DNA from: Sorangium cellulosum
GTDB lineage: Bacteria > Myxococcota_A > Polyangia > Polyangiales > Polyangiaceae
Reading direction: 5' to 3'
Assembly (NCBI GenBank): GCA_020720045.1
Contig: DYPH01000011.1
Location: 1 to 64,000 of the forward strand
Length of the DNA: 64,000 nt
A model generated the notes under the pieces. The model was given only the letters and a program-made list of their open reading frames with translations. It did not search any database and was not told where the DNA came from. Positions 22,491 through 29,525 of the stretch are shown one piece after another. Both the position numbers and the translations under genes were made by a program. Numbering within the stretch: the stretch's first letter is position 1; every line of letters begins with the position of its first letter.

Positions 22491-23510
22491 TCACGGCAAC
22501 GTGAAGTAGTCGCACGTTCCGTTCGAGGTGAGTTCGTTGTAGGAATCGACGCAGTGGGCCGCCGCGAAGTCGGGGTCTGGGCCGCAGAGGTTCGTCGCAC
22601 ACTGGGTATCGAAGACGCACGCAGCGCCGACCGGGAAGAGGTCGACGCACTTTCCGCTGACGTTGTCGGTGTTGTCGCAGAAACGGCCATTTTCGCCGAC
22701 GCCGTGATAGGAGCAGGTATTCGAACGGCGTTTGGTCGCGGTCGGGTACTCACAGCGGTCGCCAGCGGCATCGAGCGGAGCGCACGTGCCGGCGCCGTTC
22801 ACGATGTTCTTGCACGCTCCGTTCGGCGCGCATTCGATGTTCGTGCGGCAGGCACCGCCGATTGGCTGAAGGCCAACAACAACATCCTTGCACGCGTTCA
22901 CAATCGCGGCGTGCTCGGCGGCGGTTCGCACAGGCAGCGGGATCGCGCGGATCGCATCAATACATCCGGCCGCCTTCGCCGCGTTCAGCTGAAGGCGCCC
23001 GCCAGCCGTCACGCCGGGGGCGAGCAAATCTTCATAAAGATTTGCAAATCCAGCAAGATAGATCGTCGTACATTTCCCAACCTGCCACGCTACCGGATTG
23101 CCGCAGGCATTCTGAAGGGCCGAGCAGTTCGCGGTAGCCTGATCGCCCTGGAACTTAGCGATGGCCTCGGCGTTCGCCGCAGATCCGTCCGGATTCACAA
23201 AAACATCCGGTCGAGCGTCGGCGTCGGTGGTTGCGTCGGCGTCGGTGGTTGCGTCGGCGTCGGTGGTTGCGTCGGCGTCGGCGTCGGTGGTTGCGTCGGC
23301 GTCGGTGGTTGCGTCGGCATCGGCGGTCGCATCGATAGCGGCGTCGGTGGTGCTGTCGCCTGCGCTGTCGATCCCCGCGTCGATACTGCTATCCGGGTTC
23401 GGATCTTCGTACGTAACGGAAAGTTCACAGCCGGCAGCGGCGAAAACCGCAGCGGCGCTAAACAGTCCGAGTACAGCCAGCGTTGCGGTGCGGGTCTTCA
23501 AAGCTCTCAT
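22491..23510 (-). CDS. Lipoprotein with Asp-Ala-Thr repeat spacer and Cys-rich C-terminal part
   Basis: The 339-residue protein starts with a signal peptide ending in FAAAGC (lipobox). Residues of about 30-105 are a low-complexity spacer of DADATT units encoded by an 18-bp tandem repeat. The C-terminal 230 residues contain about 18 Cys in pairs (ECAPNGACKNIVNGAGTC, GAACVFDTQCATNLC), which resembles the Cys-rich repeats of many myxobacterial surface proteins. A GGAG Shine-Dalgarno lies 5 nt before the ATG. It is 68 nt downstream of the RiPP pqqD-like gene on the same strand but probably not part of that unit. The function is unknown. Confidence 0.75.
   Translation of the reverse strand: MRALKTRTATLAVLGLFSAAAVFAAAGCELSVTYEDPNPDSSIDAGIDSAGDSTTDAAIDATADADATTDADATTDADADATTDADATTDADATTDADARPDVFVNPDGSAANAEAIAKFQGDQATANCSALQNACGNPVAWQVGKCTTIYLAGFANLYEDLLAPGVTAGGRLQLNAAKAAGCIDAIRAIPLPVRTAAEHAAIVNACKDVVVGLQPIGGACRTNIECAPNGACKNIVNGAGTCAPLDAAGDRCEYPTATKRRSNTCSYHGVGENGRFCDNTDNVSGKCVDLFPVGAACVFDTQCATNLCGPDPDFAAAHCVDSYNELTSNGTCDYFTLP
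23215..23328. repeat. 18-bp tandem repeat inside the lipoprotein gene
   Basis: The unit GCGTCGGCGTCGGTGGTT is repeated six times. One copy is enlarged to 24 bp and the last copy has diverged. It encodes the ADATTD-type spacer of the lipoprotein. Copy number could vary between strains by slippage. Confidence 0.9.
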
Positions 23511-23578: not shown

Positions 23579-23869
23579 TTACAGCGCGGGTGCGGCCTGC
23601 TCGACGAGCTTTCGCTTAAGCAATTCTGCGACCAACGCACCGAGGTCGGCGCGAAGCCGCCCCTCCTCGACGTCGAACTCCCCGTCGATGCCGGCGGCGA
23701 ACTCGTTCGACGTCTTTCCGGCTACCAATGCGTCGAGGAGCCGCGCACCGAGCGGGTCGAGGGCAAAGTACTCACCGCTGTCGAGATCCAGCAGCACCAC
23801 GTCCTCTTCGAAGCGGCGCGTGAAGACGTTGGTCGGGAGTTGAAGGCGGAGGTCGGCGGGGTCGGTCAT
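23579..23869 (-). CDS. PqqD-like leader-binding protein (lasso B1 type)
   Basis: This 96-residue protein matches the PqqD/RRE fold: LPTNVFTRRFEEDVVLLDLDSGEYFALDPLGARLLDAL (read as two adjoining motifs), then a helical C-terminus. In lasso-peptide clusters the stand-alone PqqD-like B1 protein binds the YxxP motif of the leader peptide and presents it to the modifying enzymes. It overlaps the kinase-like gene by 4 nt (ATGA) and is the last gene of the RiPP unit. The upstream in-frame start would add 23 residues with no family match, so 23869 is preferred. Confidence 0.83.
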   Translation of the reverse strand: MTDPADLRLQLPTNVFTRRFEEDVVLLDLDSGEYFALDPLGARLLDALVAGKTSNEFAAGIDGEFDVEEGRLRADLGALVAELLKRKLVEQAAPAL

Positions 23870-24648
23870 GGGGAAGTCGGTGACGGGGGGAGCAGGGCGT
23901 CGGCGAGAACGTTCGCCCCGTGCGCGAGCGCCCCCCAAGCGCGGGGGCGTGCGAAGCGGCGTGTAGGTATCTGTTGCACAAGGGTGTGGGCCCGTTCAAG
24001 CTCGGCGCGTCGGCCGGCCGGATCAAAGGCAAATCGCGCCCCCTGGGCAAGCACGGCGGTTAGCGCGTCGGCCCCGTGGACCGAAGAGACGACAGGCGAC
24101 TCCTCGGGCCCAACAAACGTGAGAATAACGAGCGCTTCCACGGGAACCTCGGAAACAACGTCCGCAGGAAAAAGCGTCTTTTCCTCCGAATTAACGAGGT
24201 TTTCTCCGGCGAAAATGGTCGCAGATTGCGCGTCGAGGGCGTGCTCCTCTTCGCCACCAGAGATGCCATTCGCGCCCCAGTGGACGACGTCGTCGGCAAT
24301 CAACGTGCACCCCGCATATGCACAGAGTGCCGCGGCGAGCGTGCTCTTTCCGTGGCCGCTGTTCCCCAAAAGAACGATGGCGCGTCCGCCGCGAGCGACC
24401 GCAGCCCCGTGGAGGGAAATTTCGTCGCGGAGCGAACGCTCAAGCGCCGCAAACGGGCCCCGCAACAGGCGCCGTCGCTCCCGTTCCGGCATGGAGGCGG
24501 CCGTATAGCGCTCCAGAACGTGGCCGTCCCGGCGGGCGCGGAGGTGGGCCGCTCCGGGCCATTCGGCGACGAGGCTGCCATCAAGGTCACGCCCGATGCG
24601 ATGCACCACGCGCCCGTCGTGGAGGGAATTCGCGAGCCAGCGAATCAT
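23866..24648 (-). CDS. HPr kinase-like protein, RiPP-associated
   Basis: The 260-residue protein has ISLHGAAVARGGRAIVLLG, NSGHGKST as the Walker A (P-loop G95-T103) and LIADDVV with Asp119-Asp120, all typical of the HPr Ser kinase/phosphorylase fold. It lacks the N-terminal domain of true HprK. Homologues occur in lasso clusters, where some phosphorylate the C-terminal Ser of the peptide (paeninodin type), and in other PqqD-linked systems. The core peptide here ends in Met, so a different target residue (Thr or Ser in the core) would be needed. Translation is coupled on both sides (4-nt overlaps). Confidence 0.82.
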   Translation of the reverse strand: MIRWLANSLHDGRVVHRIGRDLDGSLVAEWPGAAHLRARRDGHVLERYTAASMPERERRRLLRGPFAALERSLRDEISLHGAAVARGGRAIVLLGNSGHGKSTLAAALCAYAGCTLIADDVVHWGANGISGGEEEHALDAQSATIFAGENLVNSEEKTLFPADVVSEVPVEALVILTFVGPEESPVVSSVHGADALTAVLAQGARFAFDPAGRRAELERAHTLVQQIPTRRFARPRAWGALAHGANVLADALLPPSPTSP

Positions 24649-26399
24649 CGGTGAGCCCTTTTTCGCGCGCGAAGCCAGTGCTCGACGGTGCAGGCGGCAT
24701 AGATAAACCCGAGCGCCGCCCCCCGCTTTTCGTCGTCGGGCGCGTTGCGAACCGCGTCGCGGTACGTGACCCACGGCGTCGCGTTGACGATCCCGAGGGC
24801 GACCAATTCGCGGGGAACATCAATGAATTCCTGAAATTCCGCGGAAGAGTACGCCTGCGAAAGCCCAAACGCACCGTCGAGGTCCCCTTTTGTGCGACGA
24901 AGACGTACAAAATCAGGGACATGCCCGCGCAACGCCCGACGCCACAGACCACGATGCAGCGCGCCATCTTGAAGGAGCTTCGGCGGAAGTGAAGCCAAAA
25001 ACCGGACCAATTCGGCATCCAAGAGCGGATCGACCCGACGAACCCCCGACGCGGCCTGCGCGGGGAGCGCATACTCAAGCTGCGTGCGAAAATCGGCGTA
25101 CGTGTCGAACCCCGAGTGGGAAACAACACGAGCGAGACGTTCGTCGGCATTTCGCGGGACCATGCGCCGCGCCGCCGCCGCCCGCCCGCGACGCTCTTGG
25201 TAGGCGCGACCGTACGGCCCCGTCCACGAAACCCACCCCTGTTCGCGGGCGAGCCACCCGCGAAGACGCAGCGACGGCGGGAGCAGCGGTCGGAGCAACG
25301 GACGGAGGAGGTAGTCCAGGAGTCGCCCGCGCCGGGTCGTCGGCCAGGGGACTTCGAGCGCGAGCACATGGCGAACCGTCGCGAGCGGTGACCGAAACAG
25401 CAGCTGCGAGAGCGCTTGCAACGGGCCGGCGAGCACCTCGTCGCCCCCCGCACCGGTCACAAGAACATCCGCACCGAGGGAAGCTGCGTAGGCATTTGCC
25501 TGTATTTCCAGGGAAGCCGAAAGCATCGGATACGGCAAACCGGCGAGGATCAAACCGTCTTGCGCTGTCGCCGACGCATCGCGCGGCAGGAGCGGCAAAG
25601 GCACAATCCCGTAGGCCTTCGCGAGCGCGTCGACGTAAGGGCGGTCGTCGTTGCCTGCGGCAGAAAAATGCCAAGTAAGTACCCGAAGTTCATCAATAGA
25701 GGCGCCGCGCGCTTCCGCAATCAACGCAGCGAGTACGCCGGAAGAATCGAGGCCACCGCTCAGCAAAATTGCGACGCGACGCGCGCCAGCAAGCTGACGA
25801 CGGACGGCGTCGCGAAGGGTCGACCAGAGCGCGTCTGCCGCTTCGTCCGGCGAAAAGGCCTGCTCAGCGAGCGGCGCTCCCTCGAAGCGACGCCGCGACC
25901 CCTCAACGAAAACGTCGCGCTCTTCGCCGGCGACCAGCCGCTCAATGCCGCGTTGAGCGGTCCGATGCCCCTCGGGGCGCAACAAGAGCGCGGTCCCGGC
26001 TGCCCAATCGCGATCGACGTCCCCTCCGCGCCCGGCTTGACGCGTGGCTGCCTCAACGACATCAAAACGCCCCGCGACAACCGCGAATTCGTCGGTATGT
26101 GCAAGATACACGCTCTGCCCACACGGGACCCCGCGCACCACACGGATGCCGTCGGGGCCGATTGCGACGCGCGTCCCGGACCCGACGCTCCCGTCGGACG
26201 CGGGCGCCCCAAATTGGAGTGCGCCTGCGGGCCCGCTCGCCGACACGGGTGCCGCGCTTCCACCGCGGGAGGCGAGCGCAGCGTTGCCCGAAGTCGTTAC
26301 GACGAGCGGCCCTCGCCACTGGTCGTCAATCGGACTAAGCCCACGAGCGAGCCGTTCCGCGGCTACCGCTCCGCCATGATGGACGACGGCGACAAACAT
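24645..26399 (-). CDS. Asparagine-synthase-like lasso cyclase
   Basis: This 584-residue protein is of the AsnB fold used by lasso macrolactam synthetases. The N-terminal domain (about 1-200) is a degenerate Ntn glutaminase: the residue after Met is Phe, not the Cys2 needed to hydrolyse glutamine. It therefore probably activates a side-chain carboxylate for attack by the peptide N-terminus rather than making Asn. The ATP pyrophosphatase motif LLSGGLDSSGVLAAL is at about 212-226, and GAGGDEVLAG follows at about 319-328. It starts 1 nt after the precursor stop, as in known precursor-cyclase pairs. Confidence 0.85.
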   Translation of the reverse strand: MFVAVVHHGGAVAAERLARGLSPIDDQWRGPLVVTTSGNAALASRGGSAAPVSASGPAGALQFGAPASDGSVGSGTRVAIGPDGIRVVRGVPCGQSVYLAHTDEFAVVAGRFDVVEAATRQAGRGGDVDRDWAAGTALLLRPEGHRTAQRGIERLVAGEERDVFVEGSRRRFEGAPLAEQAFSPDEAADALWSTLRDAVRRQLAGARRVAILLSGGLDSSGVLAALIAEARGASIDELRVLTWHFSAAGNDDRPYVDALAKAYGIVPLPLLPRDASATAQDGLILAGLPYPMLSASLEIQANAYAASLGADVLVTGAGGDEVLAGPLQALSQLLFRSPLATVRHVLALEVPWPTTRRGRLLDYLLRPLLRPLLPPSLRLRGWLAREQGWVSWTGPYGRAYQERRGRAAAARRMVPRNADERLARVVSHSGFDTYADFRTQLEYALPAQAASGVRRVDPLLDAELVRFLASLPPKLLQDGALHRGLWRRALRGHVPDFVRLRRTKGDLDGAFGLSQAYSSAEFQEFIDVPRELVALGIVNATPWVTYRDAVRNAPDDEKRGAALGFIYAACTVEHWLRARKRAHR

Positions 26400-26400
26400 C

Positions 26401-26559
26401 TCACATGTTCATCGTGTTGCCGCCCTCACCGATCTTGTTCGACGTGCCGAGCGTGAGCTCGCGAACCGAACCGAGATGGCGAAGTTGCGGGGTGACATAC
26501 GCGCGACGGCCCGTAGTTTGGGACGCGGGGCGTGAAACGTTTGAATTCAATGAGTTCAT
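26401..26559 (-). CDS. Lasso-type RiPP precursor peptide (52 residues)
   Basis: The leader (1-37) contains YVTPQLRHLGSVRELT (21-36), which fits the lasso leader pattern YxxPxLxxxGxxxxxT exactly. Thr36 is at position -2, so cleavage after Leu37 leaves the core GTSNKIGEGGNTMNM (38-52). Gly1 and Glu8 of this core are correctly placed for an 8-residue macrolactam ring with a 7-residue tail. The start at 26559 is chosen because a strong GAGGAG Shine-Dalgarno lies 8 nt upstream and a promoter precedes it. The in-frame ATG at 26625 would add 22 residues with no leader features. The mature product is inferred, not shown. Confidence 0.8.
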   Translation of the reverse strand: MNSLNSNVSRPASQTTGRRAYVTPQLRHLGSVRELTLGTSNKIGEGGNTMNM

Positions 26560-26582
26560 GCGACTCTCCTCGGAAGCGACAG

Positions 26583-26611
26583 TGTCTATCCGAACGTTGA
26601 TGCCGGGGCAA
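26583..26611 (-). promoter_or_regulatory. Promoter of the RiPP unit
   Basis: On the minus strand TTGCCC (26606-26611), a 17-nt spacer and TAGACA (26583-26588) lie upstream of the precursor Shine-Dalgarno. This is a sigma-70-like element inside the gap after the methyltransferase gene, so the RiPP genes can be transcribed without it. Confidence 0.5.
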
Positions 26612-26632: not shown

Positions 26633-27559
26633 TCAGAGGCGCGGAAGCGGAAGGCTATTCATCTGACGAAAACGGACCTTGTCGGCGAAGGTCGTCGTCC
26701 AGCCCCAGAGGTAGTCGTCCTGGACCGGCTGCGCAAACAGCGCCACAGCGACCTCCTCGCCGGCGCACACGGCAACGGGCTCCGGCCACGCGAAAAACGC
26801 GCGTCCGTAGACGTGGTCTTCACCGGGCGCATTGGAGTATCCGATCCCGGGGGCAATCTCCGCATCGAACCAGAGCACGAACCCGTGAGCAGTCCCGTCT
26901 CTTTCGAAAGAAAAACGAGCATTTCCACGAATCGGCGCCGGGGTCACCGTCGCGTAGTCGACGCTCCCAAACTCGACGGCCGGCGCCAGGAGCTGGCTCG
27001 CTTGAAACGGATGCCCGCGATCATTGTGATATTCGCTGGCGGCCGCATCGCGGGCGGCCCGCAAATCGAAAGGGAGCGGCGGGGTAGAATAGGGGCCGAC
27101 GCGCGCCCCCCAGGCGACCGGCGCTTCAATCGGCGCCACAAAGAGCCGGTCACGGAAGGGCAGGAGGGCGCCTCCGGGCTTCAAGAAGCGGTCGCGTGCG
27201 TGGGCGATGAGCTCGATGCCGCGGACGAAAAAAGGAAGATTTCCGCGAAGATCAGAGACGATGACGTCGACCTTCTCGGGAAGCTCGTAGGCAAACGCAT
27301 CGCCACGATGCACAACAATACGGTCGCCGAAGCCGTTCGCCGCGGCTAGGGCCGGGAGGACGTCAATCGCCTCGGCAACATCGAGCGCGTAGACCTTCGA
27401 GGCTCCAAATGCGCAGGCCGCCAAGGAAAAAAAGCCGCTCCCGGCGCCGAGGTCGAGCACGACGGCCCCCGGCGTAATGGCGGCGCGAAGGGCGGCCAGG
27501 TAGGCGTCGGTCCGTCCGCGATCGGCAAACATGCGGCCGTAGTCGGAGAGGTGGTACAC
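26633..27559 (-). CDS. PRMT-like class I SAM methyltransferase
   Basis: The 308-residue protein opens with YGRMFADRGRTDAYLAAL, matching the first helix of protein arginine methyltransferases, then VVLDLGAGSGFFSLAAC (motif I), VYALDVAEA (post-I) and VIVSDLRGN (motif II). The C-terminal half is the beta-barrel typical of the PRMT fold. The usual double-E hairpin is not obvious, so the acceptor may not be arginine. The start is a GTG at 27559, and the divergent oxygenase gene begins only 15 bp away. It precedes the RiPP precursor by 73 nt on the same strand, and a role in tailoring the peptide is possible but unproven. Confidence 0.75.
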   Translation of the reverse strand: MYHLSDYGRMFADRGRTDAYLAALRAAITPGAVVLDLGAGSGFFSLAACAFGASKVYALDVAEAIDVLPALAAANGFGDRIVVHRGDAFAYELPEKVDVIVSDLRGNLPFFVRGIELIAHARDRFLKPGGALLPFRDRLFVAPIEAPVAWGARVGPYSTPPLPFDLRAARDAAASEYHNDRGHPFQASQLLAPAVEFGSVDYATVTPAPIRGNARFSFERDGTAHGFVLWFDAEIAPGIGYSNAPGEDHVYGRAFFAWPEPVAVCAGEEVAVALFAQPVQDDYLWGWTTTFADKVRFRQMNSLPLPRL

Positions 27560-28553: not shown

Positions 28554-29525
28554 ATGCTTCGTCACCCGTTCTCGTTCGTCACCGCTGTTGCCCCGCTCTT
28601 CGCCGTCGCACTCGCTCTTGGGGGATGCGCCGCGGAGCCGGAAACGACGGCAGACGCCGACGAAAGCGCGGAAGACGACCTCAGCGCGGCGAGCAACACT
28701 GGCTTCTTCCAGGTCACCCGTCGCGATGCACGGCGCTGTGCAGCTCCGGGCTGCGGCGGCTACTTCGTGGCTCGCGTCAATGCGGCGAAGACGCGCTGCG
28801 CCGACGGCACCTACGCGACCGAATGCTACGTTTCCGCGCTCGACTTCAACACGAGCGGGCTGAGCGGCAGCGCGCAAAACGAAGCGACCGATTTCCTCAC
28901 GAACGGCGACGGCATCGTGAAAGGGGCCTTCAAAGCGCTCGGCGCACCGAACGCTGGCATCGCGTCGTTTTCGGTGAAGGAAGTCTGGAAAGGTGCGACC
29001 GGTGCAACCCCGAGCGGCAGCTTCTACCGGCTTGCCGATAGCGGCATCCGCTGCGTCACGACCCCCTGCCCGAGCCTGAAGGCCTCGAAGCTCAACAGCG
29101 CGAAGGTCTACGACGCGACCGGCTACGCCCTCGACAAAACGAGCCCGAAGGCGTCCGCGGCAGCCATCGCCGAGGCGACCACAGCCGCAGCGACGGCGAA
29201 CGGCTTCTTGATCGCCACCAAGACGGCGGTTCCGAACAACAACGCCCTCGTTGCAACCGAATTTTACACACGATTTGCCCCGACGACCCTCGGGCGCACC
29301 TGCGGAACCCGCGGCGGGACGATCTGCTCGAGCGACGAGTTCTGCTCCTACAGCCAAGCGGCCGCCTGCGGCACCTTCGATGCGGGCGGCTCCTGCACCA
29401 AGAAGCCGCAAGCGTGCACGGCGCTCTACCAGCCGGTCTGCGGCTGCGACGGCCGTACCTACGGCAATGCCTGCTCGGCGGCAAACCAGGGCATTTCGGT
29501 CAAGGCGACCGGCGCCTGCCCCTGA
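28554..29525 (+). CDS. Lipoprotein with DUF6748-like and Kazal-type domains
   Basis: This 323-residue protein has a signal peptide ending in LALGGC (lipobox). Residues of about 40-230 (FFQVTRRDARRC, CGGYFVARVN, CYVSALDF) look like the DUF6748 family of Myxococcales surface proteins. The C-terminal 35 residues (CTALYQPVCGCDGRTYGNAC) form a Kazal-type protease-inhibitor motif with the expected Cys spacing and the conserved YGNxC. The ATG has a GCAGGAGA Shine-Dalgarno 6 nt upstream. A surface-tethered inhibitor of serine proteases is a plausible role, but this is inference. Confidence 0.78.
   Translation: MLRHPFSFVTAVAPLFAVALALGGCAAEPETTADADESAEDDLSAASNTGFFQVTRRDARRCAAPGCGGYFVARVNAAKTRCADGTYATECYVSALDFNTSGLSGSAQNEATDFLTNGDGIVKGAFKALGAPNAGIASFSVKEVWKGATGATPSGSFYRLADSGIRCVTTPCPSLKASKLNSAKVYDATGYALDKTSPKASAAAIAEATTAAATANGFLIATKTAVPNNNALVATEFYTRFAPTTLGRTCGTRGGTICSSDEFCSYSQAAACGTFDAGGSCTKKPQACTALYQPVCGCDGRTYGNACSAANQGISVKATGACP

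Follow-up and report, generated by a model that had tools for sequence, protein, structure and literature searches.

A lasso-type gene cluster of Sorangium cellulosum with a probable leader protease encoded at a second chromosomal site

Introduction

Established lasso peptide clusters carry a B2 protease that cuts the leader from the precursor; how, then, could a cluster that has all the other lasso parts release its core peptide? This question is raised by a locus of Sorangium cellulosum (assembly GCA_020720045.1), which lies in the stretch of 64,000 nucleotides analyzed here (contig DYPH01000011.1, positions 1 to 64,000; hereafter the window). An earlier reading of the DNA, made from the sequence alone, noticed a precursor, an AsnB-like cyclase, an HPr-kinase-like protein and a PqqD-like protein with no B2 beside them, and left three options: a protease elsewhere in the genome, another enzyme doing the job, or a new non-lasso class built from lasso parts.

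The closest known systems are the phosphorylated lasso clusters of the paeninodin type, which have separate B1 and B2 proteins and an HprK-like kinase and include the Bradymonas bsf cluster (PMC10368454); with these the locus shares the YxxPxL leader, Gly1 and an acid at position 8, an AsnB-like C protein, a kinase, a PqqD-type B1 protein and Ser3. It differs in that the window cluster has no B2 and its precursor has Thr rather than Ile at position −2; it adds PhyH-like, PRMT-like and Cys-rich genes, and neither an ABC exporter nor a nucleotidyltransferase gene lies beside it in the window. A search of open-access papers found no description of B2-less lasso clusters, and lasso-type PqqD proteins without a co-occurring leader peptidase and cyclase have been treated as possible false positives (RRE-Finder, PMC7470986).

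Organization of the cluster

The four genes named by the sequence-only reading were found at or very near the places where it had put them, all on the minus strand (Table 1), and they form the tight unit that it described: adjacent genes abut or overlap, an arrangement that fits translational coupling. Its proposal that the unit has its own promoter was not supported, as no sigma-70-like site was found in a search of 22.3–28.5 kb for promoters of this type, and the methyltransferase gene ends only 73 nt before the precursor gene begins. The unit is also larger than four genes, with the PRMT-like methyltransferase, the divergent PhyH-like gene and the Cys-rich lipoprotein conserved alongside.

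Table 1. Features of the cluster and its surroundings in the window, and the candidate protease gene elsewhere in the same genome
Feature	Position	Strand	Details
Cys-rich lipoprotein-like secreted protein, directly downstream of PqqD	22491..23510	-	conserved cluster partner
Low-complexity Asp/Ala/Thr repeat (DATTDADA...)	23195-23428		N-terminal part of Cys-rich protein
PqqD-like leader-binding protein (B1/RRE), 97 aa	23579..23872	-	PF05402
HprK-like kinase, 260 aa; candidate peptide kinase (Ser3)	23866..24648	-	Walker A GNSGHGKST
AsnB-like lasso-type macrolactam cyclase (C protein), 584 aa	24645..26399	-	SGGLDS at residue 214, GAGGDE at 316
Precursor peptide, 52 aa, MNSLNSNVSRPASQTTGRRAYVTPQLRHLGSVRELTL / GTSNKIGEGGNTMNM	26401..26559	-	leader 26559-26449, core 26448-26404
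PRMT/PrmA-like methyltransferase, directly upstream of precursor	26633..27559	-	PF06325 and PRMT_C matches
Divergent PhyH-like Fe/2OG enzyme, 273 aa	27574..28395	+	HRG 124-126, LHWGG at 199, Arg213
DUF6748 protein with Kazal-type inhibitor domain	28554-29525	+	adjoins PhyH-like gene
Trans candidate, 285 aa	own genome, contig C227:5203-6060		Cys237-His267-Asp280

Profile searches gave graded support to these assignments. The precursor passes NCBIfam NF033521 lasso_leader_L3 (22.4 bits, cut-off 19), and PqqD passes PF05402 (46.4 bits, cut-off 23.4) without reaching lasso_PqqD_Strm (54.2 bits, cut-off 70). The cyclase scores 95 bits with PF00733 and has an intact ATP-pyrophosphatase motif (SGGLDS) as well as a GGDE motif, its scores with macrolact_Ik_Al (70 bits) and the lasso cyclase model (56 bits) being below these specific cut-offs. 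The kinase is below the HprK cut-offs, both for HprK_rel_A (TIGR04352, E 3e-9, 36 of 200 bits) and for PF07475 (25 of 33.3 bits).

Comparison with the sister species yielded dN/dS values of 0.10 for the cyclase, 0.09 for the kinase and 0.06 for PqqD, and between these two species of the genus the values for all enzyme genes range from 0.06 to 0.25, the upper value being that of the trans protein described below. Such purifying selection argues against decay of the cluster. The precursor evolves more freely than the enzyme genes (0.76, based on few sites). Judged by its sequence, the lasso-type cluster is real and active-looking.

Search for a B2 protease in the window and in the genome

As the sequence-only reading had reported, no B2 gene lies beside the cluster: none was found in the window between 22.5 and 28.4 kb, nor in any other frame of the cluster, where a B2 in the same transcript might have been missed. 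The cluster is counted here as a lasso variant, since it does not itself contain a B2. The wider search that this reading had proposed gave the same picture, in that PF13471 finds no B2-type protein in the 6.34 Mb genome and a family-specific B2 profile finds nothing there at E <= 1. With NF033537, one notable weak match was obtained (G000:C227:5248-5478, E 0.004), which has an orthologue of the same length in the sister species. Still weaker matches to this model came from a PF01841 transglutaminase-core protein (contig C39) and from a TPR-type protein (C339); both were judged unrelated.

Related clusters in Polyangiales

A search for other clusters with these genes, likewise suggested by the sequence-only reading, recovered about 30 Polyangiales loci. 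Of 184 genomes of the order, 26 have cyclase homologues, and a phylum-wide sample showed them to be confined to the window's own family (E <= 1e-25); plasmids searched for the cyclase gave no match. Reading 30 neighbourhoods with iterated profiles revealed a conserved order, [PhyH-like, divergent]-[methyltransferase]-precursor-cyclase-kinase-PqqD-[B2]-Cys-rich lipoprotein, to which some relatives add genes for an ABC protein and a nucleotidyltransferase. The cluster tends to be found at a single place in the chromosome, close to secG and to a shared gene for a membrane protein.

A short B2 gene directly follows PqqD in nine relatives, and 15 relatives lack B2. Because of these nine, the pathway is by its gene content of the ordinary lasso type, and the window holds its B2-less form.

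Two accessory genes recur in these loci. A homologue of the Cys-rich lipoprotein-like protein is present in 23, nearly always directly after PqqD or B2; it might act as a receptor, immunity protein or carrier. The PRMT/PrmA-like methyltransferase is found in 17 loci, and many relatives, those with B2 as well as those lacking it, have this gene ahead of the precursor.

Precursor and predicted product

The window precursor combines a YxxPxL leader and Thr(−2) with a core that has Gly1, Ser3 and Glu8. Relatives without the ring acid or the YxxP motif would have spoken against the lasso assignment, and none were seen: all 31 cores have Asp or Glu at position 7–9 and all 31 keep a YxxP leader. Among 10,000 shuffles, the number of cores with an acid at 7–9 averaged 5.7 and never exceeded 15, and beyond the ring-position acid only a single acidic residue is found in the 31 cores together. 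The invariant acid and the near-absence of others strongly support macrolactam formation, and an N-terminal macrolactam with a ring of 7–9 residues is a well-supported prediction. Gly is the first core residue in 25 of 31 and Ser or Thr occupies position 3 in 18 of 31. All 27 precursors in a comparison have Thr(−2), whether or not a B2 is encoded in cis; the search pattern permitted Thr or Ser at this position.

In the Bradymonas bsf cluster, the HprK-like kinase BsfK phosphorylates Ser3 (PMC10368454). As the window core also has Ser3, it is a reasonable guess that its HprK-like kinase may phosphorylate this residue.

Co-distribution of the trans protein and B2-less clusters

The weak match on C227 belongs to a protein (the trans protein) with homologues in 17 genomes of the order, namely G103, which is a separate case, and 16 others, all of which carry the cluster; one of these, G155, was counted as cluster-carrying by its PhyH-methyltransferase end only, at a contig edge. 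Where the cluster could be read, the homologue is present in 14 of 15 B2-less genomes and in 0 of 9 genomes with a cis B2, the latter also with a sensitive profile (Fisher 7.6e-6, from counts that are phylogenetically non-independent). The single exception, G145, has no trans homologue and carries an orphan B2 of the conventional type. In the region L121:9086-12674, that gene adjoins two radical-SAM-like genes, near a subtilase-like gene, and lies apart from the two B2-less cyclase loci of G145. On the cyclase tree, which has long branches, rejection of a single origin for the trans state reaches only p-AU 0.016, and the partition between cis and trans is not fully accounted for by one clade.

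Features of the trans protein

The C-terminal third of the protein (GKSGCLRRT...LGLDVGATGHAWLAGD...YDIAF) contains Cys, His and Asp in B2 order, and these three residues are invariant across 19 homologues. Over the C-terminal ~75 residues, the window genome's own copy scores 18–19.5 of 33 bits with NF033537 lasso_biosyn_B2 (E 0.003–0.004) and 15 of 26 bits with PF13471, thus reaching neither curated B2 cut-off. Profile-profile comparison with true B2s places Cys on Cys and His on HAW (E 3e-4, hhalign probability 39%). The structure predicted for a Labilithrix homologue (pLDDT 77) has the Cys at the beginning of a helix, with the His and Asp positioned on or next to strands that follow.

Compared with the lasso B2 leader peptidase (NF033537/PF13471, MEROPS C96), the C227 protein is alike in the CLRR...GHAW...D pattern, in the aligned Cys and His and in its apparent role. 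It differs in being an orphan of sub-cut-off score that is fused to a degenerate methyltransferase-like N-terminal half, and in most members of its family the Trp after HA is replaced. A fold search matched this N-terminal half to SAM methyltransferases (best Z about 10), but no SAM motif is evident in its sequence, so that another role for the protein is possible. The same search gave no match for the transglutaminase-like half, and profile searches of the PDB yielded no credible relatives for either B2 or the trans protein. The predicted protease is therefore B2-like by its residues, their order and its association, and a non-member by curated score.

The trans protein was found solely in the window's family in phylum-wide samples, and viral contigs contained no relative. 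Its gene has a conserved second site, in most genomes with a large lipase-like gene on one side and a biotin-carrier gene on the other; the neighbours are housekeeping-like and include no RiPP genes. Two members of the family have a different setting. The G103 homologue, which just passes PF13471 (26.1 of 26 bits), is a stand-alone B2 within a lasso cluster, L196:2912-6828, that consists of precursor YQSPALHRLGCVDELLAGGSGKNSD, PqqD, the trans-family B2-like gene and cyclase. Another such cluster in G128, L199:4466-9282, has PqqD, kinase, the trans-family gene, precursor YVAPSLRRLGNVRELVGKTGAASD and cyclase. Both are complete, with a YxxPxL precursor that has Asp8, and they represent a second, distant type of Polyangiales lasso cluster, in which the B2 belongs to the trans family.

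The PhyH-like enzyme and the C-terminal Met

All 18 members of the PhyH-like family match PF05721 (best 8.8e-12), the window copy doing so below the cut-off (E 0.029). The gene adjoins B2-less clusters and never the nine that contain B2. It is no strict cluster marker, as homologues occur in G089, G090 and G109, where no cluster was detected, and G112 has one that lies apart from its cluster. The iron-ligand motif is HRG in 16 of 18 members, including the cluster-linked copies, and HRD in two copies that are not cluster-linked; all cluster-linked copies keep the distal His and Arg. A Gly in place of the acid is a known switch to Fe/2OG halogenase (D-to-G switch, PMC12346261), and the window protein has HxG in place of HxD. 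In this respect and in belonging to the PhyH family it resembles SyrB2 and other PhyH-type Fe/2OG halogenases, whereas its similarity to SyrB2 is weak (E 0.035) and the likeness to a halogenase comes from the primary structure; the motifs were read there, the single-sequence model having a pLDDT of 35.

The precursor ends in Met in 14 of 14 clusters with a PhyH-like gene and in 3 of 13 without, an exploratory association that was spotted after the fact. The main cluster of G127 has neither the gene nor the terminal Met, and its sisters have both; G127 appears to have lost gene and Met alike. That the protein is a halogenase-type HxG Fe/2OG enzyme whose target is the C-terminal Met in the lasso tail is a tentative reading, and on present evidence a rather doubtful one.

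Discussion

Among the options left by the sequence-only reading, a protease elsewhere in the genome is favoured by the divergent B2-like protein that tracks B2-less clusters. We consider that the window probably holds a lasso-type cluster with its leader protease in trans, the gene for which lies at a second chromosomal site. We infer that PqqD (B1) would bind the YxxPxL leader and the C227 protein, as a divergent B2-like cysteine protease, would cut after TL. The AsnB-like enzyme would then adenylate Glu8 and couple it to the Gly1 amine exposed by the cut; the resulting macrolactam is presumably threaded. Ser3 may be phosphorylated by the HprK-like kinase, and further tailoring of the peptide may come from the methyltransferase and the PhyH-like enzyme.

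In other RiPP classes, the gene for the protease is known to lie outside the cluster (review PMC10885120), and the neighbours of the C227 gene look like housekeeping genes; an unrelated host protease might thus remove the leader while the C227 protein acts otherwise, for example on a different RiPP. This is unlikely, as members of the B2-like family accompany the B2-less clusters and are missing where a cis B2 is present, Thr(−2), which is used in lasso leader processing, is retained, and two trans-family members are located in lasso clusters. Less likely again is that no cleavage at Gly1 is needed, the product being either a macrocycle that is no lasso or a modified peptide that keeps its leader, made with lasso parts. 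Threading is not readable from sequence and no exporter gene lies beside the cluster within the window, but the single acid at 7–9 in every core together with the prevalence of Gly1 fits an N-terminal amine nucleophile, and precursors of this kind also occur in sister clusters with a cis B2.

The assembly consists of 357 contigs, and a gene of 350 bp could be lost in a gap; that a conventional B2 of this genome was missed in this way, or that the cluster is decaying, is nevertheless very improbable. Completeness is estimated at 100%, a conventional B2 is likewise missing from the sister species and from many genomes of the Labilithrix type, some of them assembled in ~50 contigs, the Cys-rich gene directly follows PqqD, and every enzyme gene is under the constraint described above.

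If the protease sits elsewhere in the genome and is too divergent for standard models, a group of Polyangiales lasso clusters would have escaped notice, and attempts to express just the visible cluster in a heterologous host could be expected to fail. The present analysis provides a named candidate enzyme for leader cleavage and ties a PhyH-like enzyme with a halogenase-type motif to a RiPP. If that enzyme does act on the tail Met, this would be a new lasso peptide modification, in a pathway with a trans-acting protease.
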